Assembly (NCBI RefSeq): GCF_003946625.1
Contig: NZ_RHOR01000010.1
Location: forward strand, 1-64,000
From: Companilactobacillus kedongensis
Lineage (GTDB): Bacteria; Bacillota; Bacilli; Lactobacillales; Lactobacillaceae
Direction: 5' to 3'
Length of the DNA: 64,000 bases
How positions within the stretch are numbered: position 1 is the stretch's first letter; every line of letters begins with the position of its first letter. The position numbers and the translations under genes were made by a program. The notes under the pieces are model-generated. The model did no database searches. It saw only the letters and a list, made by a program, of their open reading frames with translations, and was not told the DNA's origin. Of this stretch, positions 247-54,755 are shown piece by piece.

Positions 247-1404
247 TTAGAGATAATCAGCGGCTTTGAGAACCTCGCGTGCGTGATCCTCATCATCTGG
301 AGCAACCATAACAACGGGGCCTGTACATCCCATTCCGCTTGTAGCATAGATATCAGCTTTCCAAAGCTCTGTAACAGCTTCTTCTAAGACTAGGATATCA
401 ATACCTAAGATAGCTTCTGAAACAGCTTTTTTGGCTGGTTCTTTGACTTCTTGAGATGAGTCATCTTTCTTTGGAGGGGCTGTTAAACTAGCCAGAACGT
501 CAGACAATCCAGCCTTTTCAGCAGCTTTATACTCAGAATTTACTTTATCTACTAAATTACCTTTGACACATCTACCGGCATAACTTAATGCACCGGCAAT
601 AACATTGGCACCTGAGGCACGACTAACGATATTAATAATCTTATCGTACCCTTTACCAGCACCGGGACCATATCCTTCACCAACGGATTCATAGCTTCCG
701 CCAGTTAAGAAGGAACTCATTACTTTAGTAATAATATTACCTGTCAAACTATCCATGATCATAATATCAGGAACACCTTGTAGTAAATCATTACCACGCA
801 TTTCTATACCGCCATCTGCACGATGACTTTGGGTAAAGTTTATTTTATAACCTTTATCTTTTAATTTATTTAATGACTTTTCAACTTGGTGTGCGCCATC
901 AATATTTAAAATTCCAACTGTTGGATTTTCGTTACCATTTGCTTTAGCTACGGCAATACCTGAAATGGCATTTTTAACCATAGCACTTGTTCTATCCATA
1001 TCTGAAGTACCAGTTGTATTAGCGATAAACATGGTTTTACCGACACCTGGTGTAGTTGAACGGCCAACGGTCGACACACCAATTGGGAATGTATAATGCA
1101 TCGTTACCGCGGCATCTAATTTGCCCGCAGCCAACAATTCATCCATTCTATCATGTGCATCTTCTGGGGTAGACGCAGCAACGGTCTCTAGTTTTGTATC
1201 AGTTAAGGTACCAATAACTACAACTTCAATGGAGGGATCGTTAGCTTGAGCCAGTTCAGCACCACGAAGAACTTCTTCTTCACCATGTTCACTACCAAGT
1301 AGTGTTACACCTACACGAGGTCTAGAGCCAAAATTACCATCCTCTAAACCTTGAGCAATTTCGTCAAACACTTCGGCAATCGTGTTTTGTACGTTATTTT
1401 CCAT
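247..1404 (-). CDS. grdD: Glycine reductase complex component C, alpha subunit
   Basis: This 385-residue protein is the acetyl-phosphate-forming subunit GrdD of protein C. With GrdC it takes the carboxymethyl-selenoether carried by GrdA and releases acetyl phosphate. It has a PlsX/phosphotransacetylase-like fold by family. The C-terminal GMGCTGPVVMVAPDDEDHA segment carries the conserved Cys. A good ribosome site (AAAGGGGGGAG) precedes the ATG at 1404. It is the last gene of the operon, 30 bases after grdC. No clear terminator was seen between it and the IS3 fragment. Confidence 0.93.
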   Translation of the reverse strand: MENNVQNTIAEVFDEIAQGLEDGNFGSRPRVGVTLLGSEHGEEEVLRGAELAQANDPSIEVVVIGTLTDTKLETVAASTPEDAHDRMDELLAAGKLDAAVTMHYTFPIGVSTVGRSTTPGVGKTMFIANTTGTSDMDRTSAMVKNAISGIAVAKANGNENPTVGILNIDGAHQVEKSLNKLKDKGYKINFTQSHRADGGIEMRGNDLLQGVPDIMIMDSLTGNIITKVMSSFLTGGSYESVGEGYGPGAGKGYDKIINIVSRASGANVIAGALSYAGRCVKGNLVDKVNSEYKAAEKAGLSDVLASLTAPPKKDDSSQEVKEPAKKAVSEAILGIDILVLEEAVTELWKADIYATSGMGCTGPVVMVAPDDEDHAREVLKAADYL

Positions 1405-1434
1405 TTTTCTCCCCCCTTTAAGGATGATTATTCT

Positions 1435-2973
1435 TTATTTTAGAGAATCAGCAAATTGTTTCATTGATTCGGCGATCATTTGACGAATTGTATCTTTGTC
1501 GACTGAATCGTCTTCAACATGTCCATCATTTGCTTCTACAATAAATGAAATACCATCAAAGAGGTTTGTTAATCTTCCTAAGAATAAACTACCTTTACCA
1601 ATGATCATTGTACGATGAATATCACCATTTTCGATCATCTCGATAGCGTGTCCTAAGAATGGAACACCTGATGGGATGTGGCCCTGTGTAGGTACAAATC
1701 CAGGCATACCAATTCTTTCAACAACTTCATTTAATTCACTTCTAGCAAATACTTTTTTCATAATACCCAAAGCGGCAATCATCTTGTAATTGGCAGAAGG
1801 TATATCACCAGCACCAGCTGGGACAGTAATTTCAGGATTTTGCATTTCGGCAGAAAATACATCAACATCCTTGATCGATAAACCTGCATGTTCGAGTGGA
1901 TCGGCAACTATAGCTTGCATAATAGCTTGTGGAGCGGCACCACTACCAATTTTATGTTTACCGACAATATCTGTACGGATCACTGGGGACTTGCCATCAT
2001 TTTCACCAACGTGAATAGCAAAGGCACCTAAACAGTCTTCAATGAGGGGTTGATCTTTTTTAACGTGATCTTTACCATTCATTCCAAGTTTGGCTGATGA
2101 ACCTCCGGCAAGGACTACGACATTTGAATATACGCCCGCTTGTACTAGTGCTGAAGCTTCTACCATAGAGTGAGCAGGAGCGGCACAGAAACTACGTGTA
2201 TCTGATCCAGTAGCGTTGACACATCCACAAATTTCACCGATAGATTTGGCATAGTTACCACCGGCACGTTGGAACATGTCACCACAACCTTCTTCACTAC
2301 ATTCGATCAAATAATCAACATCATCTGGTTCGAGATCATTCTTAGCAAATAATTCAGCTAATGCATAGGCACCAGAAGCCTTACTTACTAAGTTTTCAAA
2401 CATGACATCACTTGTCAAAGCGGCGTCAAATTCATGAGCTCTCTTGATGCAACCAACTAATTCATTATCAAGATACAATGGTTTTGCATCTTTTTCTTCA
2501 ATTAAAGATTTAATCTCATCAACTGAGCTGGGATTCTCAGTTAACTTATCTAAAGTTACCCAATATTTACCAATGACTGGGTCTTCTTTAACTTTTTTAG
2601 CGATCTTCTCTTGAAAACTTGCATCTAAAACTACTAATTCAAACATATCAACGGCCTTTAAGCAGCCATAAAACATATCTTCTGACATAATTGAACCGAA
2701 TTTTCCTTCGGTTGAAGCGTTTTCTAATGGATGTTCGTACCAAGGTTTCTCAATATTATTTAAATCACGTGGATGAATATTACCTATATAAGCTTGATTA
2801 GGACCATACCCAACAACATCTTCAAATGAACGCAAGTGATCTGGAATAGCTTTGAGATAATCTGAATCCGGGCTATTTCTCATTTCACTTTCTTGCAATT
2901 TACCTTCATGAACTAAGATATCTGGTGTATGAACTAATGTATAAGCGGTTCCTTTAAGCACTGGAAAAGTCAT
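1435..2973 (-). CDS. grdC: Glycine reductase complex component C, beta subunit
   Basis: This 512-residue GrdC is a thiolase/KAS III-fold subunit of protein C that works with GrdD to form acetyl phosphate. The stretch around CGCVNATGSDTRSFCAAPAHS holds candidate active-site cysteines. An upstream in-frame TTG at 2988 exists, but GGGGGTGC sits 6 bases before the ATG at 2973, so that start is preferred. A terminator-like hairpin lies between grdB and this gene. grdCD expression may therefore depend on readthrough or a secondary promoter. Confidence 0.93.
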   Translation of the reverse strand: MTFPVLKGTAYTLVHTPDILVHEGKLQESEMRNSPDSDYLKAIPDHLRSFEDVVGYGPNQAYIGNIHPRDLNNIEKPWYEHPLENASTEGKFGSIMSEDMFYGCLKAVDMFELVVLDASFQEKIAKKVKEDPVIGKYWVTLDKLTENPSSVDEIKSLIEEKDAKPLYLDNELVGCIKRAHEFDAALTSDVMFENLVSKASGAYALAELFAKNDLEPDDVDYLIECSEEGCGDMFQRAGGNYAKSIGEICGCVNATGSDTRSFCAAPAHSMVEASALVQAGVYSNVVVLAGGSSAKLGMNGKDHVKKDQPLIEDCLGAFAIHVGENDGKSPVIRTDIVGKHKIGSGAAPQAIMQAIVADPLEHAGLSIKDVDVFSAEMQNPEITVPAGAGDIPSANYKMIAALGIMKKVFARSELNEVVERIGMPGFVPTQGHIPSGVPFLGHAIEMIENGDIHRTMIIGKGSLFLGRLTNLFDGISFIVEANDGHVEDDSVDKDTIRQMIAESMKQFADSLK

Positions 2974-3012
2974 ACTTTGCACCCCCAAAATAATTATTTG
3001 AAACTATCTTAT

Positions 3013-3045
3013 AAAAAAAGGAGTCGAAAAGTTGTTTTCGGCTCC
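3013..3045 (-). terminator. Terminator-like hairpin between grdB and grdC
   Basis: An 11-bp stem (3020-3030 with 3035-3045, one mismatch, 4-base loop) is followed on the minus strand by seven Ts. It sits inside the operon, so it probably attenuates rather than ends transcription and lowers grdCD relative to grdEAB. Confidence 0.75.
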
Positions 3046-3070
3046 TAGTTGAAACTCTTGAGCTCCCTTA

Positions 3071-4366
3071 CTAGTTGAATACTGTCTGTTCAGTAACAGG
3101 TGTTTCAAGCGCTTTAAGAGCTTTTCTTACTAATTTTCTACGTAATTCTTTTTCATCTTTAGGATCCAATTCTGGATTACCTAATGGATATGGAATTGCG
3201 ACTGTAGGAACAATTCTGTTAGCTCCAACTGTCTTAGAAATAGGAACAATTGTACACATATGAACAATTGGTAGTCCTGTGGCTTCAATAGCCTTAACCA
3301 TCGTTGCACCGCAACGAGTACAAGTTCCTCAAGTGGATGTTAGAATAACAGCATCTACGCCGTCTTCTTTAAGTTGTGCTGCAATTTCTGTACCAAACTT
3401 TTTAGCATTTGCTACAGATGTACCATTACCAACGGTAGCGTACCAATAATCATGTAACGAACCGATTTCACCGTTAGCAAGCATTTCTTTAATCACGTCG
3501 ACTGGTAGGACACGATCCAAGTCTTCATTTGCGTAGACTGGGTCATAACCACCGTGAGCTGTTTGTCCGTTTTCTGGAGTAAAGTCATCGATATCTTTCA
3601 AGCTATATTTACCATACTTAGATGCACTTGAAGATTCGATGTGGTCAGGATTTCCTTTTGGAACTGGACCACCAGAAGATACCAAAGCGATTCTTGCCTT
3701 TGTAATATCTTTAACGGCTGGAGCTGGGTCAACACGGTCGAAGGTAGGCATTGGATATTCAGTTGTGAATTCCTTGCCTTGAATTTTGTTTACGAGCATT
3801 TCAACAGCACGTTTTGAACCACGTTCTTCTCTGAATACATTTTCACGGAGACCTTTTGGCATATAACCTGTAACTTCTTCATTACCGTCAATAATTTGTT
3901 TAACAACGGCAGACATTGCAGGAATTGCTTTTCTCATTGTAGCGGCACTATTACCAACCTCTACAAAATATCCGTGTTTTCTGTATAGCTCGAAACCAGG
4001 GTTCTCTGGATACATACCACCAACAACTGGTAAATGTAAATTCTCATCAACCAATTTGGCAACTGCACCAGCTGCGACACCATAACGACCGGCGTTAAAA
4101 CTTGGTCCTACGATGACGATATCTGGATCGTAGCTTTTAATCATTTCAAGAACAGTTTCTGAAGCTTCTGCTTCATTTTCATTAAAGTAACTATCACCAC
4201 AGATGACGGTACCAACGATTTCTGCTACATCAGTAAGTTGACCTTTAAAAGCCATACCAGGTCCAACAACACCGTCTCTCTTTTCAGGCTTAACATCAGC
4301 CTTCTCTTCACCACCGATCCCGGCAAAGAATTGGTTTATGTAATGCACAATTCTTTTTTTGGTCAT
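3071..4366 (-). CDS. grdB: Glycine reductase component B gamma subunit, selenoprotein (in-frame TGA at 3329-3331)
   Basis: Reading the TGA at 3331-3329 as selenocysteine joins a 345-residue N-terminal part to an 85-residue C-terminal part, giving 431 residues, the normal GrdB length. The junction reads ST-U-GTCTRCGATM, which matches the GrdB UxxCxxC-type active site. GrdB with processed GrdE forms protein B, which binds glycine as a Schiff base and passes the carboxymethyl group to GrdA. AAGGAGG precedes the ATG. A short hairpin starts 12 bases after the TGA and could be a SECIS element. Automated annotation would split this gene in two. Confidence 0.95.
3297..3316 (-). promoter_or_regulatory. 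Candidate bacterial SECIS hairpin in grdB
   Basis: After the minus-strand TGA (3331-3329) and 12 bases, CGTTGC pairs perfectly with GCAACG around a GGT loop. A 6-bp stem with a G at the loop start, 18 bases after the UGA, fits the spacing known for bacterial SECIS elements read by SelB. Assignment is by position and shape only. Confidence 0.55.
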
Positions 4367-4407
4367 TTTATTTCCTCCTTTACAAAAGGTTTGGGAAGTA
4401 GTGAAAA

Positions 4408-4857
4408 CTATCCACGATATTCTTGTACTTCTTTATTAATGGCATCTTTATCCAATACCATTTCCATCATTGATATTTGTTCGTCATAAACTGCTGGATC
4501 TACTTCATCTTTTAGTTCAAACATATGATATGCTTTGAGTCCTAACTGGACTCCTGCTAATGGACCAGCGAATGTTGGATCACCAGTTGATACGGTTTCG
4601 GCAGCCAAACCACAAGCTTCAGCTTCCCCACCACCTAGTACTACTACTAGATTGTCTTTACCGTATTTGTCTGTAAGATCTTTAATTCTTTGTTGGTTTT
4701 CCAGGTCCATAGCTCCCGCGCTCGTTCAAACAAAGCATTCAGTTGTTGAAAAGACAACTTCTGCGCCTGCTGTTTTTACACAAGCTTCGATAGCCATGCC
4801 AGGAATTCCATCACGGTCGCCTAAAATGGCGATCTTTTTGTTTTCAAGAATACCCAT
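4408..4857 (-). CDS. grdA: Glycine reductase component A, selenoprotein (in-frame TGA at 4726-4728)
   Basis: The full gene starts at ATG 4857 (AGGAGAGC ribosome site) and reads [20 protein letters not shown], then [16 protein letters not shown], to a total of 149 residues with one selenocysteine at codon 44. The ECFVU motif is the GrdA signature. The selenol carries the carboxymethyl group between proteins B and C and is recycled by thioredoxin. Only the part after the TGA would be found as an ordinary ORF. It lies between grdE and grdB, the conserved clostridial position. Confidence 0.96.
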
Positions 4858-4913
4858 AATGTGCTCTCCTTCAATTTTATTAAATTTAATGTTTACTAAA
4901 TAATTTCGTTATA

Positions 4914-6203
4914 CTATATTGTTTTAGCTGATAGATTGAAGAATCCTAATTCATTTGTTGAACCAGTGATTACTTGAAGTTCAGCTTCAATTGATCCATC
5001 TTCACGAAGGCTTCCATCCCAAGCACCAGCAATAATATTGGCAACTTCTGGATGACCGATAACTGTATCCATAGCTGGAAGGTCGATAACTTCGTTAGCG
5101 TTACCTGCAGTTACAACAGCATCACCTTTAGGAGTTGAATCAGCTAATGATTGACTGGCACCATCTTGTCCAGCATACTCATCTGTTACAAGAACTGTCT
5201 TGATACCTTTATTTTCAAGGTTGTTACAGTTCATAACCAAGTCGGCATCAGGGTTACCAAAGCCTTCTTCTGAGATGATTGCTGCGTCAGCGCCAAGTAA
5301 TTCAACCAATTTAGCGGTCATATTTGATGAACGTTTCTTGTCTTGCAATGTTACGTTCTCATTGGTAATAACACATCCGATAAAGTTAATTTCTTTACCA
5401 TTCTTTTCATATAAATCGTCAATAACTGGACTGTTCAAATGTACATATGATGGATTCTTGTCACAAGCCGAAACACAGTTACCACTTGTAATGGCTCCGT
5501 CAAATACTTCTGTTGGATACATAAATGTTGGAACGATCTTCTTGGCATCTGCACCATAGAAGAAGGTATTATGCATCAATCCTTGTGTTTGTAGTGCATA
5601 TACATAAACTACTTTTGGTAGATCAGGATATTCTTTAACTTGTTCAAGAAGAGGTTTTGTTTCATATACCTTTTCTTCATCAGGTTCAACATTTCTTCCT
5701 GCTTCACCAATATAATTGGCAGCTCTGAAACCAGCTAAACGAATAACTTCTTCGTGTTCGTGTTGCTTGATGCTGTCGATTGGTTCCATTTTAATTACAA
5801 TATTATTTAATTTTGAGAATGGTGTATATTTAGCACCTTCACCACTCATATCAATGATTCCTTCTTGGAATCCAACAATCTTACCAGTTGTTACAATTGC
5901 TGCACCTTTAAGTACGTGTGTACGTCCAGATCCAACTTGCTCAACATCACCAATAACACCTGGGAAAATATTTCCTTTGCCGTCAACTTTGCAACGTGGT
6001 TCGATAACGTCTTTAACTGGAATGATACGAGTCTTGTCACCTGGTTTAGCTAAATACACATCAAGAGACTTGATTCTTTCATCTCCACCTGTCGCAGCTT
6101 CGATCAATTCGTCTTTATCAACGAATAATGTGCCATCTTTAACTTCGGTTTTTTCACCGAAGGCAATATCTTTAATTAGGATATTGCCAATTTCTAATCG
6201 CAT
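4914..6203 (-). CDS. grdE: Glycine reductase component B, alpha/beta proprotein
   Basis: This 429-residue GrdE proprotein forms the substrate-specific part of protein B. The family is cleaved before a Cys to give a new N-terminal carbonyl group that binds the amino acid substrate. Here GNCVSACDKN places the cleavage between Asn242 and Cys243, as in characterised clostridial GrdE. The order trxB-trxA-grdE-grdA-grdB argues for glycine rather than sarcosine or betaine, though substrate cannot be settled from sequence alone. ATGGAGGGATATT precedes the ATG. Confidence 0.93.
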   Translation of the reverse strand: MRLEIGNILIKDIAFGEKTEVKDGTLFVDKDELIEAATGGDERIKSLDVYLAKPGDKTRIIPVKDVIEPRCKVDGKGNIFPGVIGDVEQVGSGRTHVLKGAAIVTTGKIVGFQEGIIDMSGEGAKYTPFSKLNNIVIKMEPIDSIKQHEHEEVIRLAGFRAANYIGEAGRNVEPDEEKVYETKPLLEQVKEYPDLPKVVYVYALQTQGLMHNTFFYGADAKKIVPTFMYPTEVFDGAITSGNCVSACDKNPSYVHLNSPVIDDLYEKNGKEINFIGCVITNENVTLQDKKRSSNMTAKLVELLGADAAIISEEGFGNPDADLVMNCNNLENKGIKTVLVTDEYAGQDGASQSLADSTPKGDAVVTAGNANEVIDLPAMDTVIGHPEVANIIAGAWDGSLREDGSIEAELQVITGSTNELGFFNLSAKTI

Positions 6204-6251
6204 AATATCCCTCCATTCTTTGCATATTTGCAGTTATTCTAAATGATGAAA

Positions 6252-6584
6252 CTAAACTGTTAATTCATCTAGTTTAGCTGTTACGGCTGCCATACCTTGA
6301 TCTTCCAAGATTTCTTTGCCAAGAGTAGCAACTTTTTCACCATCTTTATAGAATAAATATGCTGGAATTCCCATGACTTTTTGTTTCATGGCCATTCTCA
6401 TATTTCCTGTAGTGTCGAATGCATAGAATGTTGCTACATCAGATTTGTCATCTGATAGTTTTTCAACATCTGGCATAAGTGCCATACATGGTACGCATTT
6501 TGGACTAAAGAAATCCACCATAACTAAACCTTTCGAATTACTGATTGTATCTTCAAAATTTTCTTTTGTAAGATGTTCCATCAT
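6252..6584 (-). CDS. trxA: Glycine-reductase-associated thioredoxin with CVPC active site
   Basis: This 110-residue thioredoxin has the active site SPKCVPCMALMP (Cys30 and Cys33), in place of the WCGPC of ordinary thioredoxins. Non-canonical CxPC thioredoxins are typical of grd operons. They reduce the mixed selenide-sulfide of GrdA after each turnover. The start offers two adjacent ATGs after AGGGAGGC, and the first is annotated. It lies between trxB and grdE. Confidence 0.9.
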   Translation of the reverse strand: MMEHLTKENFEDTISNSKGLVMVDFFSPKCVPCMALMPDVEKLSDDKSDVATFYAFDTTGNMRMAMKQKVMGIPAYLFYKDGEKVATLGKEILEDQGMAAVTAKLDELTV

Positions 6585-6610
6585 AATTTTCGCCTCCCTT
6601 CAATTTTTTT

Positions 6611-6647
6611 ATCTTTGAAATCTAATACTGGACTAAATTTCAAAGAT
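6611..6647. repeat. Intercistronic hairpin between trxB and trxA
   Basis: A perfect 11-bp inverted repeat (6611-6621 with 6637-6647, 15-base loop) lies in the 104-base trxB-trxA gap. On the minus strand the stem is followed by As, not Ts, so it is not a classical terminator. It may be a processing or stability element in the operon mRNA. Confidence 0.5.
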
Positions 6648-6688
6648 AAAAAATTTAGAAATCAATCTAAACTTTTTATTTGATCTGT

Positions 6689-7933
6689 CTAAACTTCAAC
6701 AGATTCTTTCAATAAATCTTCAACGGCATCAGATGTAATATTCTTTGCTCCTTCAATTCGAGCAACATCTTTGCCATCTTTGAACAATACAATAGTAGGA
6801 ATTTCTGTAACTTTATATTGTGTAGCTGTCTTTTTGGCTCTATATGTATCGAGTTTTACTAATTCAACTGCACCATTTTTCTCTTCAACAATTTTATCTA
6901 CTGCGGCAATCGAGTCGATACTTTCTTCAACTTGTGGTGCCCAGAATGCTAAGATAACTGGTTTCTTGTTGCTTACATCTAGGACATCATTTTGAAGTGT
7001 TTCGAGTTCTGACAAGTACTTTTCAGCGGCTGATGCGGCAATTGCACCATCAGCTGCAGCTGTAACAACTTGACGAAGATATTTAACTCTTGCATCTCCA
7101 ACAGCATAAACACCAGGTACATTTGTTTCCATCATATCGTTAGCAACTAAGTAGCCGCGATCATCTAATTCAACCTTTCCTTTAAGGAAATCTGTGTGAG
7201 GTTCTGTTCCGATAAATACGAAGACACCGTTTGTTTCAAGATCAGTTAACTCGCCAGTGTTGATATTCTTCAAAACAACTTTTTCTACTAATTCATCACC
7301 AGCAATTTCTTCAACAGTTGAGTTCCAAACCCATTTGAGTTTTGGATTCTTCATGGCCTTTTCAGCACTAGCCTTATTACAATCAAGATTTCCTTCTTCA
7401 TGAATAACGATGATCGTTACTGTCTCAGCAAATTTGGTTAAGTACATTGCTTCTTCAATAGCAGCATCCCCGTTACCAACAACCACAACATCCAAATCTA
7501 CAAAGAAGTCAGCGTCACAAGTTGCACAATAACTTACACCTTTACCTCTTAACTCAGCTTCACCTTTAACATTGATTTTTCTTGGTGTAGCTCCAGGTGA
7601 TAAAACAACAACCTTTGATTCATATGTATCACCTTGTTGTGTGTGAACCTTCTTTACAGGTCCAGTGAAGTCAACTTCATCAACTGTTCCCCTTAAAAAT
7701 TCTGTTCCGAATGACTTAGCATGGTCAGCAAATTCCTTCATAATACCGGGACCAGTAGTACCGTTATAAAAACCAGGATAATTTTCCATTTCATCTGTTG
7801 TTGAGGCTTGTCCACCAGGTTCAGCATTCTTATCTAGAACAGCTGTACTCAATTTAGCACGGCTACCATAGATACCTGCGGCTAGTCCACCAGGACCAGC
7901 ACCGATAATTAAAAGATCATATAGCTTTGACAT
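6689..7933 (-). CDS. trxB: Thioredoxin reductase with fused Cys-less thioredoxin-like C-terminus
   Basis: The protein has 414 residues from ATG 7933. GGAGGAG sits just before it, so the in-frame start nine codons upstream is rejected. Residues 1-305 are a TrxR flavoprotein: FAD GAGPGG (11-16), redox CATC (Cys136/Cys139), a GNGDAA nucleotide loop (153-158) and a VGDAR FAD motif near 278. Residues about 315-414 form a thioredoxin-like fold with WAPQVEES where WCxxC is expected, so it has no redox cysteines. The HRR motif that binds NADPH phosphate in ordinary TrxR is absent (IVIHEEG instead). NADH or ferredoxin could therefore be the electron donor. Confidence 0.85.
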   Translation of the reverse strand: MSKLYDLLIIGAGPGGLAAGIYGSRAKLSTAVLDKNAEPGGQASTTDEMENYPGFYNGTTGPGIMKEFADHAKSFGTEFLRGTVDEVDFTGPVKKVHTQQGDTYESKVVVLSPGATPRKINVKGEAELRGKGVSYCATCDADFFVDLDVVVVGNGDAAIEEAMYLTKFAETVTIIVIHEEGNLDCNKASAEKAMKNPKLKWVWNSTVEEIAGDELVEKVVLKNINTGELTDLETNGVFVFIGTEPHTDFLKGKVELDDRGYLVANDMMETNVPGVYAVGDARVKYLRQVVTAAADGAIAASAAEKYLSELETLQNDVLDVSNKKPVILAFWAPQVEESIDSIAAVDKIVEEKNGAVELVKLDTYRAKKTATQYKVTEIPTIVLFKDGKDVARIEGAKNITSDAVEDLLKESVEV

Positions 7934-7972
7934 AAAACTCTCCTCCCATACATAAGACAATTATTAATTTAA

Positions 7973-8359
7973 TTATTCATGGTATTTGTAAGGCAAACTA
8001 TCAATCGCGGAATCTAATAAGTCTAAGTCAATTACTTGAAAATCCTCTAAAACGCTCTCGTCATATTTTCTGTTTAAAGGAGGAAACTTTCTAAGTACTT
8101 GAATTGATCCTTCTATTAGTTTTAGTGAAGTCATATCAAGATCACCTTTTTGATTGCTTAAAACTAAACTCTTATATGGACTCTGATTAGGCTTGATGCT
8201 CCCAGCAAGTGGATGATTAATCAAATTGGCTCCTAAATGAATGGAATCTCTACTATGAGCAAAAATATCTGCAACGGTTAAGTTCTGGTCAAATTCGGTA
8301 AATTCTGAATACTTATCTTTAACCATTGGATTATTAGTCAAGATATGGAAATTTGCCAT
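7973..8359 (-). CDS. grdX: GrdX family protein
   Basis: This 128-residue protein matches the small GrdX family by its MANFHILTNNPMV start and its place as first gene of a grd operon. Its biochemical function is unknown. A strong AAAGGGGG ribosome site precedes the ATG. The consensus promoter 50-75 bases upstream starts the operon here, and trxB follows after 39 bases. Confidence 0.82.
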   Translation of the reverse strand: MANFHILTNNPMVKDKYSEFTEFDQNLTVADIFAHSRDSIHLGANLINHPLAGSIKPNQSPYKSLVLSNQKGDLDMTSLKLIEGSIQVLRKFPPLNRKYDESVLEDFQVIDLDLLDSAIDSLPYKYHE

Positions 8360-8405
8360 TCTTCAGACCCCCTTTGTTAACTTTTTCACTTTCTCTTACA
8401 ACTGC

Positions 8406-8434
8406 AATATATCGTATTAACGATTGATTTGCAA
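8406..8434 (-). promoter_or_regulatory. Promoter of the glycine reductase operon
   Basis: On the minus strand, TTGCAA (8434-8429), a 17-base spacer and TATATT (8411-8406) form a near-consensus sigma-A promoter, about 47 bases before the grdX ATG. No riboswitch-like leader fits in this short 5' region. Confidence 0.75.
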
Positions 8435-8443
8435 GCGTTTTTA
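8430..8443 (-). promoter_or_regulatory. cre-like site overlapping the grd promoter
   Basis: TGCAAGCGTTTTTA matches the catabolite-responsive element pattern TGNAANCGNWWNCA at 13 of 14 positions and covers the -35 box. This placement suggests CcpA repression when preferred sugars are present. The inference rests on the motif only. Confidence 0.5.
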
Positions 8444-8794: not shown

Positions 8795-10150
8795 TCAATA
8801 GATTACATGAGACTTAGAATAAGCAAAGTATAAGATTACTCCAATGGCTAGCCAGCCTAGGTAGTTTAACCATGCGGAGCCTGGTAGATTAAACAATAGC
8901 AAGATACATACCAATGCTGATAACGTTGGAATAATTGATCCAAATGGAACCCTAAATGCACGTTTCAATTCTGGATGCTGTTTTCTTAATAGTAGAACTG
9001 CGACAGAAATCAGGAAGAAAATACATAATGAGCCGACATTGGCGAATGTGGCCAGTTTTTTGATGTCTAATAATCCTGAACATGTTGCAGTGATAATTCC
9101 GATGATCCAGAGTGCTTCATTAGGTGTTTGTGTCTTAGAATTTAACTTACTAAATCTAGCAGGTAAGAATCCCCCCCGACTCATTGACATAGCAATGTTT
9201 GAAGAAGCATAAATAAATGCCAAAATTACGGCAAGAATACCTAATATAGCCCCAAACGAAACAATTTCTGCTACGATTGGATGTTTTAAAGTAATCAAAA
9301 CAAATGACATTGCTTCGGGAACGTTCAGTAGATTATACTTAACGTCTCCAGTCATTACTAAACTGACAATAATATATAAGATAGTAGAAATAGTTAATGA
9401 AGCAATAATAGCAATTGGCAAGTTTCTTTGAACTTTCTTACAATCCTCAGCTGATGTTGCTAAAGCATCAAATCCTAAGAAAGAAAAGAATACCGTTGAA
9501 GCTCCTGTAAAAATTCCCTTTACCCCAAATGGTAAGAATGGTTTCCAGTTAGAAGTCCTGACATGAAATGCGCCAACAACCACGAATAGTAAGATAATAC
9601 CGATCTTTACTAAAACTAATACATCATTAACGACTTTACTTTCACTCATACCGCGAGTTAGTAATAAGGTTATTAATAGTACAACTATAACGGCCGGCAA
9701 ATTAATTAATCCACCGTTAAATGGAGACTGCACTAAACTTTCTGGCAAGAAGATATTTACTTCTTTCAAAAATGACGTTACATATCCTGTCCAACCTGTA
9801 GCAACCGTCGCTGTCGTTGTAATATAAACACCAAGTAGTGTCCAACCAGAAAAGAAGGCAATTTGTTCACCCATCGTTATCCATGAATAAACGTAGGCAC
9901 TACCTGAACTTGGGATTGTTGTTGTTAACTCTGAATAACACAATCCAATCAATGCACTAGCTAAAGCTGCTATTAAAAATGAAAATACTACACCCGGACC
10001 GGCATCCGTTGCGGCAACGATACCTGTCAAAACTAAAATACCAGTACCAATGATGGCTCCGATCCCCATAATTGTGAGATCAAAAAGCCCTAGTGTTTTG
10101 GGTTTATCCTGTGAAACGTTTATTAAATCTTCAATTGGCTTTCGTCGCAT
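8795..10150 (-). CDS. APC-family amino acid permease (YfnA/CAT-like)
   Basis: This 451-residue integral membrane permease has about twelve hydrophobic segments and the APC start GIGAIIGTGILVLTG. It resembles cationic or broad-range amino acid transporters of the YfnA type. It lies upstream of the glycine reductase operon on the same strand, separated by 435 bases with their own promoter. It could supply substrate, but specificity is not readable. An extended -10 promoter and a CodY-box-like site lie upstream. Confidence 0.85.
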   Translation of the reverse strand: MRRKPIEDLINVSQDKPKTLGLFDLTIMGIGAIIGTGILVLTGIVAATDAGPGVVFSFLIAALASALIGLCYSELTTTIPSSGSAYVYSWITMGEQIAFFSGWTLLGVYITTTATVATGWTGYVTSFLKEVNIFLPESLVQSPFNGGLINLPAVIVVLLITLLLTRGMSESKVVNDVLVLVKIGIILLFVVVGAFHVRTSNWKPFLPFGVKGIFTGASTVFFSFLGFDALATSAEDCKKVQRNLPIAIIASLTISTILYIIVSLVMTGDVKYNLLNVPEAMSFVLITLKHPIVAEIVSFGAILGILAVILAFIYASSNIAMSMSRGGFLPARFSKLNSKTQTPNEALWIIGIITATCSGLLDIKKLATFANVGSLCIFFLISVAVLLLRKQHPELKRAFRVPFGSIIPTLSALVCILLLFNLPGSAWLNYLGWLAIGVILYFAYSKSHVIY

Positions 10151-49033: not shown

Positions 49034-51310
49034 TTAGCGAACTGAGTCCGTTAAGCCCCAGGTAATTGTATACTCATAATTTCCAGCCTTAGCGGTAGAA
49101 TTTGCCTTCAAGAGAATGCCATCATTTTCAGTCCACGTATTGGCAACCTGAAAAGTAGAACCGTCTATAATATTATTGCTGGGAAAAGTACTCTTATTAG
49201 CAATTTCTATAATAGATCCATTCAAAATGGATTTTGATATGCCGGCATCGTCAACATACACTAGATCTCCATCAAATTTAGCACTTGTATCGGGTTGTTT
49301 AGCGGTAGCTGTTAAGATCCATTTAGAAGTATCAACCGCATTATCAACAATATCCAACTTCCAATTACCTTGGCGCGGAACCGTCTGATTCTTACCATTA
49401 GATCTCACTGTTCTAAAGTACATAAGCTTATCAGCGTCTATCAATATCGGTGCTGAAGTCGGTTTGGTAATTGTATAGGTAACATAGTTAGTTCGATTTC
49501 CACTTTTATCAGTTACATACACCATCAATGTATTTTTACCATCATTTAAACTAGTTCTAGGTATGGTTAACTTCATAACAGCATTAGTGTCGGACCCCAT
49601 ACCAGTAGTAACTTCATTATTACCATTAAGTGAATAGTGAACCGTTAAATCTGAGTTGACCACATTTATACTAGTATCATCGTACCAAATTTTACCCGTG
49701 GCATCGACCGATGCAGCATCCCCAATATCAAGATTCAGGTTTCCCCCATCCAACAACATACCTGCTCTCTTTATGACAAAATCTTGTAGTTGTGTGTACT
49801 TAATCAAATTGTCTCCAGTAAAAGCAACATCTGTAGCAGCGACATCAGTATCTACTTTAGGGTTTAGAGAATTGGCCACTCCGTTTAATGTAATCGTTGC
49901 GCTATTAGGGTCTTTGTCTTTCAGAAGATTTTTTAATGTCCGTTTAAGTGGAGAAACTCTAAGTTCATTACTAGTTATATTCTCACTAGTACCATCACTA
50001 TATATAATCGTTCCATTTATATAGATCATATTATCTGGCAAATTTATCGAAGCTAGAATATTTTGCCAATCCATCGCACCACTATCACGTTTAACATTAT
50101 AGACAAAATGTAATTGATCATGATTATAAACACTTTTATCAGTCGAAGTTAGTTCCTTACCACCTTGAGAAATATTATAAATATGCGTTCCAACTGTACC
50201 TTCAACGATAGATGGAATCGACTCAAAAACAACCATATTTCTGGCATATTGATCACCGGTACTACCAGTGAATCCCCAAAGAACTTTCCCTTCATTTTGA
50301 GAAAATTGTTGCGTAGGGTTTTTATAAAAATTACTTGTATCAATTGGTATATCAGCTACTTTAACAGGTTGGGAATTATTACCCGCAGTTACTTCACCCG
50401 TATGAATTTTACCATCCAATTCATATGTTAAGTGACCAACCGTACTTCCAGGATCTGCCGGAGTCCACGTTATTACCAAGTGATGCCAGAGACCATTACT
50501 TAATCTAAGGTCTCCCTTAGAACTTTGAGTCTTTAAATTTCTATGCAGTAATTGATATATATATACCGTTTTCATTGTTCCCTGATTAGGTATTTGATAA
50601 ATAGAAGCGGGTAAACCAACGTACGAACTGGCCTCACCAGGATAATTATCCCCAATATGTGACGTTGCCTCCGTTGAGAATCCTCCATCAAAGCCGTTAT
50701 TTACCCCAGTAAGACTACCACTCCAACCACCATTACTAAAAAGACTAGAATGATTTCTATTAGGATTCATATGAGTATCAAATTCCATAGCCCAGCTATT
50801 CTGAATTGCCTTATCTGCTAAAGTTTGCCCTGACCCACTAAAGGGATCTTTATCTATCCCCCAAACTCCCATAGTTTGTCCTTTTGCAGGTAAAGCTCCA
50901 TCCATAGATATAGCACCATATCCAGAATTCTGTAGAACGAATGCCAATCCATCAGCCGGATCACTTTCATATCCAAAATACATCCACATTGATAAAGTCT
51001 GCTTAACGTTTAGATTAATGTAGTTATTTGCCTTGTCATTAGACCAGACACCACCAATTGACATACCTTCTTTAGGTGTAACTTGGATGATACTAGTGTC
51101 ACCATTTTTAAAATTAGTATTGGCTCCATTACCCTTAAATGTTCCCCTAGTAAAATAATCATCAAAATTCAAACCTTTTGGTGCATTATCAACAGGTATA
51201 TCTGCCGCCTTCACATCCAGTGTATTGATCTGATCATAAGATAAAATGAATCCGGATAAGAATACGAACAAAAATACAGTAATTCCCTTTATAATTTTAT
51301 TTATGGTCAT
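49034..51310 (-). CDS. L-type lectin WxL surface protein 1
   Basis: This 758-residue adhesin-like protein has a signal peptide, then a legume-type lectin domain (about 40-300) with DGLAFVLQN, GQTMGVWG, NSWAMEFDTH and a GLWHHLVITW strand. An all-beta linker follows, then a WxL domain with WILTATA and YTITWGLTDSV at the end. It probably binds glycans and stays wall-associated. ATG 51310 follows GAGGG; a GTG four codons earlier is less likely. The next gene is a tandem paralogue. Confidence 0.88.
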   Translation of the reverse strand: MTINKIIKGITVFLFVFLSGFILSYDQINTLDVKAADIPVDNAPKGLNFDDYFTRGTFKGNGANTNFKNGDTSIIQVTPKEGMSIGGVWSNDKANNYINLNVKQTLSMWMYFGYESDPADGLAFVLQNSGYGAISMDGALPAKGQTMGVWGIDKDPFSGSGQTLADKAIQNSWAMEFDTHMNPNRNHSSLFSNGGWSGSLTGVNNGFDGGFSTEATSHIGDNYPGEASSYVGLPASIYQIPNQGTMKTVYIYQLLHRNLKTQSSKGDLRLSNGLWHHLVITWTPADPGSTVGHLTYELDGKIHTGEVTAGNNSQPVKVADIPIDTSNFYKNPTQQFSQNEGKVLWGFTGSTGDQYARNMVVFESIPSIVEGTVGTHIYNISQGGKELTSTDKSVYNHDQLHFVYNVKRDSGAMDWQNILASINLPDNMIYINGTIIYSDGTSENITSNELRVSPLKRTLKNLLKDKDPNSATITLNGVANSLNPKVDTDVAATDVAFTGDNLIKYTQLQDFVIKRAGMLLDGGNLNLDIGDAASVDATGKIWYDDTSINVVNSDLTVHYSLNGNNEVTTGMGSDTNAVMKLTIPRTSLNDGKNTLMVYVTDKSGNRTNYVTYTITKPTSAPILIDADKLMYFRTVRSNGKNQTVPRQGNWKLDIVDNAVDTSKWILTATAKQPDTSAKFDGDLVYVDDAGISKSILNGSIIEIANKSTFPSNNIIDGSTFQVANTWTENDGILLKANSTAKAGNYEYTITWGLTDSVR

Positions 51311-51476
51311 ATAATCCCTCACTTATATAATCAAATCATTTCTAAATATAAAACTTTTCTCTTTACAAAATATATATTACACGCTTTACGTAATAATTAA
51401 AACTCAAAATACGTAATTTTTCATTACAAATTTTGATTAAATTTTATATATCAAAACCATTTAAAAATTTATAGAT

Positions 51477-51525
51477 AAAAAAAGACTTTCAATACTGAAA
51501 AAGTTCAGTTATCGAAAGTCTTAAT
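51477..51525 (-). terminator. Terminator after lectin gene 2
   Basis: AAGACTTTC pairs with GAAAGTCTT, extended by CTGAA/TTCAG inside, with a T run on the minus strand. Lectin genes 1 and 2 are thus separate transcription units. Confidence 0.75.
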
Positions 51526-51527
51526 TT

Positions 51528-53819
51528 TTATAGAGAATCTGTTAGATTCCATGTCACATCGTATTTGTAGTTACCCTTTTTAGCCGTTGAATTTGCTTTT
51601 AAAAGTATTCCGTCGTCGTTATCCCAGGTATTTGCTACCTGATAAGTTTTTCCATCGCTAACAAAATTGGATGGGAAAGTTGACTTATCGGCTATTTGAA
51701 CAATTGATCCATTCAATACCGATTGAGTAACCCCAGTATTATCAACATACAATAAATCACCATCAAAAGTATCACTACTTGGATCTTGCACTGCAGAAGC
51801 GGTCAGTTTCCAATCAGAAGGATCAGTATTATCGACCACATTTATCTTCCAACTGCCATTGCGCTTAACCATCTGATCTTTACCATTCGAGTGGACGGTC
51901 CTAAATGACATATTGCTATCAGCATCAATCAGAATGGGTGCAATCGTTGGTTTATTTATCGAGTATGTAACTGAATTGGAACGATTACCATCAGAGTCGG
52001 TTACATAAGCAGTAAGTTTATTATCACCATCATTCAAATCTGCTTTAACAACATTGATTGAAATCTTACCGTTAGATCCGCTAGCCAATGCTTGTGTTTT
52101 TTCAGTACCATCATTGAGCTTATAGTGTACAGTAACTTTTGAATTATTCATAACTACACTTGGATCAATATATGAAGCCGTCGCCATTGCATCGACACTT
52201 TCCTTGGAACCAAGGTCCAAATTTGTTGAGTCCGGAACTAGTTTCATAGTCGTTGCCTTAATAGTGAATCCCTGAAGATCAACATTTTTGAGCAAATCAG
52301 ATCCGTTAAAACTGGCTGTTGTCGCTGCAACATTAGTATCAGCAGTCGGTTTCGTTGCATTTGTTACACCATTAATAGTGACTGTCGCACTGTTAGGATC
52401 ACCTGATTTTAATAGATTTTTTAATGTTCTAGTAAAGGTCCCACTGGACAAATCACTTGCAGAAATATTATCGATAGTTCCATCACTGTATGCAATCGTA
52501 CCACCAGTATAATCCATATTATCTGGCAAATTTATCACTGCATTAATGTCCTTCCAATCTAGCTCACCACTATCACGTTTCAAATTGTAGACAAAGCGCA
52601 TATTATCGCCGTTATAAACTTTATCATCAGTTGAAGTAAGCTCTTTACCAGCCTGTGAATCATCATAAATATTAGAACTGACAGTACCTTCAACTAGAGA
52701 TGGGATTGATTCAAAGATTACCATATTTCTGGCATATGATGCACCGGTTGTACCAGTAAATCCCCAGAGGATCTTACCTGTGTCTCTACCAAATTGTTGT
52801 GTTGAATTTTTGTAAAAATTATCAGTATTAATCTCTATATTTGAATCCGAAACTGGTTGCTGTTTTTTAGGTGCAAAGAGATCGGCAGTCTTGATCTTAT
52901 CGTCAAAAGTATAAGATAAGTGACCTTTATTACTACCCTCTACTGGTGGTTGATAAGATATAACCACATGATGCCACATACCATCACTTAAACTAAGTCC
53001 CTTATTATTAGATGTCGACTTTAATCCCTTATGAGCCATTGAATACCAGTATGTTTGTACAGGATTCGGATAATAGCTGTTGCCATCATTTGCGGTCTTA
53101 TCACTATGCTGCATGTAGGTGGTAGCCTCACCAGGATAGTTATAAGCAATATGAGAATAAATTGAATTTATTCCAAGCTGCCCATCAAAACTAGTATTGT
53201 AATTTTTATAATTGGCATCCGTTGCTATCCCATTATCAAACATACTTGCACCAGAATTATTATTGTTTTCAAATGTATCAAATTCAAGAGCCCAACTATT
53301 TTGAATGGCCTTCGCAGCTACATCATCTGAAGTAGTACTGCTCTTATAACTATCATCTGATCCCCAGACACCCATCGTTTGTCCCTTGGCTGTTTCACCG
53401 TTAGATAACTTGGCAGCAGCATCAAACCCAGAATTCTGTAATACAAAAGCCATCCCATCACCAGGGTTTGCTCTGTTATCTAGATAAATCCACATTGACA
53501 GTGTCTGTTTTGCTTTAAGGTTAAAATAGTTCATACTATCAGGATTTGACCAAACATAACTTTGCTGATTTTGAGCTCTTTTTGTTAATTGAACAATACC
53601 GGTATTACCATCATTTGATGAAATAATACTGGCATTATTAGTTGGAACCGTACCATTTTTAAAATAATCTGAAAACTTCAACCCAGCCGGAGCATTAGAA
53701 ACAGGATAATCTGTATCAGCAATTACTGTTTTTAGGCTCTGATTACTTTCAAAAAATACCCCAAATAAAACAATCGCCGAGATAACCCAAATATACCTCA
53801 GTGTAGTGTTTTTCCTCAT
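51528..53819 (-). CDS. L-type lectin WxL surface protein 2
   Basis: This 763-residue protein repeats the architecture of the neighbour at 49034: signal peptide, lectin domain (DGMAFVLQN, GQTMGVWG, NSWALEFDT, MWHHVVISY), beta-rich linker and WxL domain (DWKLTASA, YDVTWNLTDSL). Long stretches of the C-terminal halves match closely (DGILLKANSTAKKGNYKY), so the two genes are tandem duplicates with diverged lectin loops. ATG 53819 follows GAGGG. Confidence 0.88.
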   Translation of the reverse strand: MRKNTTLRYIWVISAIVLFGVFFESNQSLKTVIADTDYPVSNAPAGLKFSDYFKNGTVPTNNASIISSNDGNTGIVQLTKRAQNQQSYVWSNPDSMNYFNLKAKQTLSMWIYLDNRANPGDGMAFVLQNSGFDAAAKLSNGETAKGQTMGVWGSDDSYKSSTTSDDVAAKAIQNSWALEFDTFENNNNSGASMFDNGIATDANYKNYNTSFDGQLGINSIYSHIAYNYPGEATTYMQHSDKTANDGNSYYPNPVQTYWYSMAHKGLKSTSNNKGLSLSDGMWHHVVISYQPPVEGSNKGHLSYTFDDKIKTADLFAPKKQQPVSDSNIEINTDNFYKNSTQQFGRDTGKILWGFTGTTGASYARNMVIFESIPSLVEGTVSSNIYDDSQAGKELTSTDDKVYNGDNMRFVYNLKRDSGELDWKDINAVINLPDNMDYTGGTIAYSDGTIDNISASDLSSGTFTRTLKNLLKSGDPNSATVTINGVTNATKPTADTNVAATTASFNGSDLLKNVDLQGFTIKATTMKLVPDSTNLDLGSKESVDAMATASYIDPSVVMNNSKVTVHYKLNDGTEKTQALASGSNGKISINVVKADLNDGDNKLTAYVTDSDGNRSNSVTYSINKPTIAPILIDADSNMSFRTVHSNGKDQMVKRNGSWKINVVDNTDPSDWKLTASAVQDPSSDTFDGDLLYVDNTGVTQSVLNGSIVQIADKSTFPSNFVSDGKTYQVANTWDNDDGILLKANSTAKKGNYKYDVTWNLTDSL

Positions 53820-53967
53820 AAAACATCCCTCATTTACCCATTCGTTTATGTCTCGATATAATAAGATAACATAAGCATACATTAATAAAAGGAATAGGCG
53901 TTACCAATAATAATAATGGTTCCTTACAAGAAATGAGAAAAATCATATAACCATAATTTTATTTACA

Positions 53968-54018
53968 GAAAAAGATGATTAAAGAGAAATCAACTTTCAT
54001 CATTCTCTTTAATCATCT
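53968..54018 (-). terminator. Terminator overlapping the end of the quinone-reductase gene
   Basis: A perfect 16-bp inverted repeat (53973-53988 with 54003-54018) overlaps the last codons, with a T run following on the minus strand. Confidence 0.75.
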
Positions 54019-54682
54019 CTAAAGTGTCATTTAATTGATCTAATTCTTCAATTCTAGCTGTAAAGTTATCCAAAATTAACTCAATTGATTTTTTATCATC
54101 AATATTGGCATCTAAATCAAATTGTTGCAGCTTTTTTTCAAACCATGTCTGCTTATTCTTCAATGAGTCAGGCATTTTTTGAGTTAAATATCTTTGATAA
54201 TCCATTAAAAGATCCATTTGCATCAATTCAGTTTTATACCAGAACTGTGGGACCGGAAAAATAGGCAGTATCTTCATCTTGGCTTTATCAGCAATAGCTC
54301 GATAAGGTGTCATCAATTCATCTAATGAAAAGTTTTCAGCAGCACCCTTCTTGAAATCTTTTAAGGGTAATCCAGTTGTTATAACTAAACCAAATTCCTT
54401 ATCTTCCAATGGATAAGTCCTATCGCCGTATATAAAATTCCGAGTTAAGACTGTATCTTCCCAAGCCTTCAAACCACTGGGTGCTGAATACCAATAGAGC
54501 GGAAACTGAAAAATTATTCGATCCGCTTGAATTAGCAGTTTTTGCTCATTAATAATATCAATGTTATCAAGTTCTTCAACATGGTGCCAAACAACGTTTT
54601 TTTGTTTAGACCCTTCATATAAAAACTGTTGAGTCTGGGAATTATCTATCTCAGGATGAGAAACTATTATCAAAGTTTTCAT
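53990..54682 (-). CDS. KefF/MdaB-like NAD(P)H oxidoreductase
   Basis: This 230-residue flavodoxin-fold protein has the start KTLIIVSHPEIDNSQTQQF and FQFPLYWYSAPSGLKAWEDTVLTRNF, typical of KefF and NQO1-type quinone reductases. FMN or FAD is the expected cofactor. It interrupts the lectin gene row, and its role there is unclear. ATG 54682 follows GGAAGTGAG. Confidence 0.85.
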   Translation of the reverse strand: MKTLIIVSHPEIDNSQTQQFLYEGSKQKNVVWHHVEELDNIDIINEQKLLIQADRIIFQFPLYWYSAPSGLKAWEDTVLTRNFIYGDRTYPLEDKEFGLVITTGLPLKDFKKGAAENFSLDELMTPYRAIADKAKMKILPIFPVPQFWYKTELMQMDLLMDYQRYLTQKMPDSLKNKQTWFEKKLQQFDLDANIDDKKSIELILDNFTARIEELDQLNDTLEMIKENDES

Positions 54683-54755
54683 CGTTCTCACTTCCAATTA
54701 TTCAAATTACTTATTTACCAATGAGCATAACAAAAAACATTGCATTTTTGTAATA

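Follow-up and report, generated by a model that had tools for sequence, protein, structure and literature searches.

Lactobacilli are usually described as sugar fermenters with no need for selenium. Near the start of a 64,000-nucleotide stretch of Companilactobacillus kedongensis DNA (contig C2:1-64000 of its genome; the whole stretch is called the window here) lies a set of genes resembling the glycine reductase operon of clostridia, and the question raised by this locus is whether it specifies a working, selenium-dependent enzyme and how a lactobacillus came by it. Judging from sequence comparisons, it is very probably a functional glycine reductase operon of clostridial type, which would act as an electron sink and a source of acetyl phosphate, would depend on selenium, and would be served by selenocysteine (Sec) genes of different origin. 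A preliminary description of this DNA, made from the letters alone, had taken the host to be Lactobacillaceae-like, and the genus is indeed Companilactobacillus.

The intact operon, grdX-trxB-trxA-grdE-grdA-grdB-grdC-grdD, occupies window positions 247-8359 on the minus strand. All eight grd and trx genes that had been predicted were found, in the clostridial order as claimed; the predicted extent of 247..8434 was right at its start but not at its end, as coding stops at 8359 and 8434 falls in the upstream region. The genes were named with NCBIfam models that have curated cut-offs. Scores passed the cut-off for grdX (7973-8359; NF038093, 120.5 bits, cut-off 40), trxB (6689-7933; the general thioredoxin reductase model TIGR01292, 351.5 bits, cut-off 343.45), grdA, encoding selenoprotein A (4408-4857; NF040748, 251.4 bits, cut-off 130), grdB, encoding selenoprotein B (3071-4366; the glycine-specific TIGR01917, 638.5 bits, cut-off 602.2), grdC, encoding component C beta (1435-2973; NF040746, 767.1 bits, cut-off 450), and grdD, encoding component C alpha (247-1404; NF040747, 567.1 bits, cut-off 350). 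The trxA gene (6252-6584) scored 108.3 bits with NF047697, under the cut-off of 140, and was named also from its sequence, which has a CVPC active site. GrdE (4914-6203), the component B pro-protein, matched the sarcosine GrdG model NF040793 over its full length at 619.5 bits, under the cut-off of 780; it is thus a full-length homologue, yet above no curated cut-off, and the second basis for its name is that the nearest clostridial operons have a GrdE 75-79% identical to it. It is predicted to be a pyruvoyl-forming pro-protein. All components are therefore represented: B (GrdE and GrdB), A (GrdA), C (GrdC and GrdD), the thioredoxin pair and GrdX. For GrdB, no relative of solved structure was found at E ≤ 0.01.

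The alternative that survives best, though it is improbable, is that the substrate is sarcosine or betaine, not glycine. GrdB did score slightly higher in the sarcosine GrdF model (649.5 bits) than in the glycine model (638.5), but 649.5 is under the GrdF cut-off of 800, whereas 638.5 exceeds the glycine cut-off of 602.2; the score in the betaine GrdH model was 525.6, under its cut-off of 775. Further, the score of GrdE falls short of the sarcosine GrdG cut-off.

In-frame TGA codons were found exactly where the preliminary description had put them, at 4728-4726 in grdA (Sec 44 of 149) and at 3331-3329 in grdB (Sec 346 of 431); the predicted masses are about 16 kDa for GrdA and 46 kDa for GrdB. 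Directly 3' of the grdB TGA is a selenocysteine insertion sequence (SECIS) element (Rfam SECIS_4, 3291-3328, minus strand; 60.2 bits with a gathering score of 38). Behind the TGA of grdA the consensus folds weakly (-4.6 kcal/mol). Among relatives, 7 of 11 loci were scanned with Rfam. Among the genus copies examined, the TGA was kept in grdA (9/9) and grdB (9/9), and also in prdB (9/9) and prdC (9/10), two D-proline reductase genes taken up below; the sole prdC copy without it is the truncated one of C. furfuricola. Ratios of nonsynonymous to synonymous differences (pN/pS), summed over all pairs, were 0.076 before and 0.063 behind the TGA of grdA, 0.108 and 0.056 for grdB, 0.130 and 0.142 for prdB, and 0.148 and 0.170 for prdC. 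With pN/pS low on both sides of each TGA, the codons there are under purifying selection as protein. For every grd gene the corresponding substitution ratio (dN/dS) was at most 0.104 in three species pairs, some dS values being high, up to 2.35 (grdX). Since both grd TGA codons are kept in 9/9 copies, pN/pS is low, and SECIS_4 stands behind the grdB TGA, these codons are more than chance occurrences. It is highly improbable that the operon is a relic, or that its TGA codons are read as stops and no active enzyme is made: the failure of Rfam to find a SECIS element for grdA would fit such a reading, but the retention of both codons in nine species, the purifying selection before and behind them, and the presence of Sec genes in the genome do not.

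Those Sec genes lie outside the window, as had been proposed. The genome is 2.27 Mb in 37 contigs (99.67% complete, 0.47% contaminated). The window holds no tRNA gene, selA and selB have no match on contig C2, and selD is on contig C12, no genome-wide selD search having been made. The deduction that the cell must encode its Sec machinery elsewhere was correct: tRNA-Sec, selA, selB and selD are all on C12, and with yedF and a cysteine desulfurase gene also found, the genome is far from lacking Sec machinery; such a lack is what the preliminary description had said would refute it. The C12 island is bordered by alr on one side and cbpA-ldh-pth-mfd on the other (alr, pth and mfd named by eye). 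It contains, in order, tRNA-Sec, prdC, prdA, a gene for a small CBO2463-domain protein, prdB, prdD, a prdE-like gene (a match to the end of PrdA), a proline-racemase-like gene (510.8 bits, under the model cut-off of 556), a TSUP-like permease gene (named by eye; no NCBIfam match), selD, yedF, a DUF3343-like gene (named by eye; no model match), selB, a gene for a selenium-linked cysteine desulfurase of the EF2568 type, and selA. The tRNA-Sec scored 66.3 bits against a gathering score of 47, and ARAGORN found the same gene; selA scored 564.4 bits (cut-off 267.9), selB 359.3 (242.25) and selD 372.4 (125). Four D-proline reductase proteins likewise passed their NCBIfam cut-offs, PrdA at 966.8 bits (700), PrdB at 413.9 (300), PrdC at 498.2 (490) and PrdD at 344.9 (320). 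An in-frame TGA is codon 151 of prdB (241 codons, about 26 kDa) and codon 394 of prdC (435 codons, about 47 kDa), the latter in a CxxU setting, which is the 'form 1' motif listed in the available part of PMC13188914. The claim of two selenoproteins stood for the grd operon; because prdB and prdC, outside the window, also have in-frame TGA codons beside grdA and grdB, the genome holds at least four predicted selenoprotein genes and a second reductase. Two acetate-kinase-family genes in the genome pass the Pfam cut-off. The TSUP-like permease gene (L119 1500-2375, between prdF and selD) is kept in the sel-bearing genomes of the genus and in G136 and G137, and its product is a candidate transporter for a selenium or sulfur compound.

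To see how grd, prd and sel are distributed, 36 Companilactobacillus genomes were sampled, that of C. kedongensis included. A full GrdB was found in 9/36, PrdB in 9/36 and selA above the cut-off in 10/36. All nine grd genomes were among the ten with selA (hypergeometric p 1e-7, uncorrected for relatedness), and each of the ten selA genomes had at least one of the two reductases (eight both, one grd only, one prd only), so that the combinations grd+prd+sel, grd+sel and prd+sel are each present in the genus. In C. furfuricola (G007), most of prd has been lost in a deletion that begins in the 3' part of prdC and ends in the 5' part of prdF, fusing the remnants of these two genes (L283 2798-4080), with sel and grd kept. 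The tenth selA genome, G002, has prd and sel without a full grdB, and its cluster (L250) is not at the alr locus that the nine other species use, a difference which suggests that the prd-sel island can move. ARAGORN found tRNA-Sec at all ten sel-bearing loci and at 0/26 alr loci of sel-less congeners, some of which are cut by contig ends. A genus tree built from four core genes implies a minimum of three changes for grd and four for sel, a result compatible with early gain and repeated loss. In eight congeners (L026-L033) the GrdB match is confined to the N-terminal half, some 165-175 profile positions, with an internal stop in four; these are perhaps members of the non-selenium GrdB-like family NF041545.

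Beyond the genus, GrdA was above the cut-off in 7/397 and selA in 12/397 genomes of a Lactobacillaceae sample, counts that are low by at least three because G007, G029 and G033, which have both genes, were not drawn. In a Lactobacillales sample GrdA was found in 27/395 and selA in 42/395 genomes; all 27 GrdA genomes were among the 42, and the TGA was present in 27/27. The preliminary description called glycine reductase typical of clostridia and other amino-acid-fermenting anaerobes; the enzyme is rare in Lactobacillaceae but not foreign to the order. Two other Lactobacillaceae stretches, L252 and L253 (G101 and G236), carry a full sel cluster; neither grd nor prd was matched in the fetched stretches, and the family search gave no GrdA for these genomes.

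In keeping with a lactobacillus as host, a GrdE scan over named genomes, in which the best 80 loci were kept, gave as best matches listed C. zhongbaensis, C. furfuricola, C. mishanensis and C. versmoldensis (88-90% identity), and the next match listed after the genus was a Ruminococcaceae genome (79%). C. versmoldensis DSM 14857 has the same operon (L041). The origin of the operon was studied with trees. The grd tree was built from GrdE+A+B+C+D of 84 rows with all five genes, from 130 sources and with four duplicates removed; it and the SelA tree were both quick-mode trees. The nine Companilactobacillus grd rows were united (support 100) and were sister to the Ruminococcaceae bacterium OttesenSCG-928-I18 (L042; support 98), and together they sat in a clade of Oscillospiraceae-, Eubacteriales- and Defluviitaleaceae-named rows. 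The 19 other Lactobacillales grd rows, including G067 of another Lactobacillaceae genus, made a separate clade (support 100). The approximately unbiased (AU) test rejected a clade of the Companilactobacillus rows with these 19 (p 8e-7) and with G067 alone (p 2e-59). In the SelA tree, Companilactobacillus and G067 formed one group (11 rows, support 100), with other Lactobacillaceae as its neighbours (15 rows, support 80); Companilactobacillus SelA alone was not a supported clade (60). Joining Companilactobacillus SelA to L042-L045 was rejected (AU test, p 1.5e-4; p 0.012 with G067 added). Because grd branches with Oscillospiraceae-type clostridia and SelA groups with Lactobacillaceae, the trees assign glycine reductase and the Sec machinery to different origins, and the grd genes were apparently acquired from clostridia. 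An ancestor of some Companilactobacillus species would have received them from an Oscillospiraceae-like donor, and the Sec genes would have had a different history, on the Lactobacillaceae side. Inheritance of grd in common with other Lactobacillales, with no separate gain, would accord with the 27/395 order genomes that have GrdA and with the grouping of SelA with Lactobacillales, but both AU tests on grd oppose it and leave it less probable still than a relic. In one stretch of G067 (L158), Sec genes and a grd operon lie together with a permease between them; its grd is in the other Lactobacillales clade and its SelA in the Companilactobacillus group.

The flanks of the operon were compared as well. 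Upstream is a gene for a BcaP-like amino-acid permease (8795-10150, minus strand; score under the BcaP model cut-off), a candidate member of the system. A bcaP gene is upstream of the operon in 9/9 species, with apc2 beside it in 8/9. In G029, a genome assembled as one 2.67 Mb contig, grd is found at 2.04 Mb and prd-sel at 2.42-2.43 Mb. At the prd-sel locus, alr is upstream of prdC in 9/9 grd species, and cbpA is downstream of selA in two genomes (C. kedongensis and G007), other stretches ending before that point. Downstream of grd, G016 and G021, of two different lineages, have three genes in common by eye (YbjQ-like, dipeptidase-like and a permease). The least probable alternative, that the contig is clostridial contamination or a misassembly, can point to the nearness of the grd genes to Oscillospiraceae-type clostridia, to a GC of 0.381 in the operon and 0.347 elsewhere in the window, and to a contig that begins right behind the operon with the start of a transposase-like open reading frame (ORF), but it is very unlikely because the upstream flank is common to nine species and G029 has both loci on one contig, a relative that contradicts the contamination named in the preliminary description as fatal to it; moreover, the genome is just 0.47% contaminated, and the operon's GC at third codon positions (GC3), 0.243, lies less than one standard deviation (sd) from the mean of the remaining ORFs in the window (0.287, sd 0.046).

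A conserved block lies upstream of grdX (8406-8441, minus strand), consisting of AAAACGCTTGCAA (8441-8429) and TATATT (8411-8406). Across the nine species, AAANCGNTTGCAA is upstream of grdX in 9/9 and TATATT behind it in 8/9 (G007 has TATACT); the intergenic region around the block drifts over much of its length. The block resembles a cre site. As a cre site it is not significant by consensus matching, and a stricter cre pattern, GAAANCGNTTNCA, gave no match; the conservation of the block across species is what stays. A cre-like stretch upstream of prdC is not uniform, with one mismatch at most in 6/10 genomes and no common place. In C. difficile, the available part of PMC3510511 reports, CcpA represses the grd operon in response to glucose and the prd genes are induced. 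By analogy, the grd operon of Companilactobacillus is possibly repressed by sugar.

The TrxB of the operon is a variant. A thioredoxin-like domain without CXXC (FWAPQVEES) is fused to its C-terminus, and the protein keeps GxGxxA (GNGDAA) but is missing HRRxxxR (HEEGNLD instead). Loss of HRRxxxR together with the CXXC-less fusion is common to L042-L045, L067, L084, L093, L096, L097, L114 and L117; the TrxB of L053 has the same fusion, the NAD region not being covered by the alignment. Most Clostridium-type loci keep HRRxxxR, and the TrxB type of other Lactobacillales, of different sequence, is also without it. C. difficile TrxB3, which keeps both motifs, is taken as an NAD(P)H enzyme in the part of PMC10880999 available. 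Since the arginine motif is lost and the dinucleotide motif kept, the sequence suggests that the operon TrxB uses NADH rather than NADPH. A single-sequence AlphaFold model of TrxB had a mean pLDDT of 34.9 and was not used.

Several observations count against a functional operon with the history and regulation proposed. At E ≤ 1, Rfam gave no SECIS element behind the TGA of grdA, prdB or prdC. The cre consensus at two mismatches had 48 matches in the window against 41.7 expected, which is chance level, and the NADH proposal rests on one missing motif. Downstream of grd, the other six of eight relatives have different neighbours, and the window contig ends there. Finally, the root of the genus tree falls on the long branch of G019, which leaves the order of gain and loss uncertain.

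Two features of the window lie apart from the operon's function. The contig opens at 1-130, right behind grdD, with the beginning of an ORF that by eye resembles an IS3-type transposase and is perhaps the reason for the contig break. Three long ORFs at 49034-56921, of 762, 784 and 721 aa, begin with signal-like sequences, share a similar motif (APxGL) near the start, and may form a family of surface proteins.

If the operon works like the known enzyme, protein B would bind glycine through its pyruvoyl group and Sec, protein A would carry the carboxymethyl group as a selenoether, and protein C would release acetyl phosphate, from which acetate kinase would make ATP; TrxB and TrxA would re-reduce protein A. 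This chemistry is established for glycine reductase. In the host, sugar breakdown would supply the reducing power, and glycine, together with D-proline through Prd, would be an external electron acceptor sparing pyruvate from lactate formation. Abundant sugar would lower expression of the operon, and glycine and proline would be usable only with a supply of selenium. We thus infer, as the preliminary description did, an amino-acid-based ATP route and a selenium requirement. A wider proposal, which we hold only tentatively and think somewhat less likely to be right than wrong, is that part of Companilactobacillus has a selenium-dependent fermentation of sugar plus amino acids, in which NADH from glycolysis is passed to glycine and D-proline by way of a grd-linked reductase that no longer has NADPH specificity; the two amino acids would not be coupled to the oxidation of other amino acids. 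Sec decoding would then be a modular platform that gains and loses reductases of different donors.

In an open-access literature search, no paper paired Companilactobacillus with glycine reductase or with a selenoprotein; a broader search did not name the genus among the matches listed, Companilactobacillus and proline reductase not having been searched as a pair alone. In the parts available, PMC6588266 includes glycine reductase A and B among the selenoproteins of lactic acid bacteria, PMC8894896 lists grdB, selA and selB in Enterococcus durans, PMC1794560 (2006) knew an orphan selD alone in Lactobacillales, and PMC5029168, PMC13188914 and PMC9312934 have no report of grd or prd in Lactobacillaceae. 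In mechanism this is an ordinary glycine reductase; its genes are intact and under selection, the enzyme is rare in the host group, and the search found no description of it there. What is new is a combination of features: a lactobacillus with two Stickland reductases and four or more selenoprotein genes, the different origin of Sec and grd, and the natural grd-only and prd-only variants. With Sec and the two reductases, some lactobacilli would have an electron sink that depends on selenium and a further source of ATP, and an amino-acid sink known chiefly from clostridia may add to the fermentation of sugar; growth on peptides rich in glycine and proline would also have an explanation open to test. 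Companilactobacillus in addition provides a natural experiment in the retention of Sec decoding.

Compared with known systems, the C. difficile grd operon (L099) has the same gene order and a stop codon in the Sec columns of its GrdA and GrdB, its GrdE and GrdA being 67% and its GrdB 63% identical to those of the window. Its TrxB3 keeps HRRxxxR (HRRQGFR in L099; PMC10880999, in the part available), whereas the window TrxB lacks the motif and is fused to the CXXC-less domain. The D-proline reductase cluster of the same genome, beside the sel genes, is a separate locus from grd and serves a different Stickland acceptor. As in the window genome, GrdA with TGA and selA occur together in 27/27 GrdA genomes of the Lactobacillales sample, and all five Grd proteins were in one stretch in 18/27 order loci fetched and in L158 (G067); the operons of other Lactobacillales, L158 included, differ in forming a separate clade, in a GrdC about 50% identical, in other gene orders, and in another TrxB type, also without HRRxxxR. 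The closest counterpart of those compared is the operon of L042, the tree sister, which has the same gene order, the same TrxB fusion and the same motif loss, with GrdE 79%, GrdA 82% and GrdB 81% identical. It differs in its clostridial host and in the partial selA and csd-like gene that flank it, and the SelA of L042 is not close to that of Companilactobacillus.

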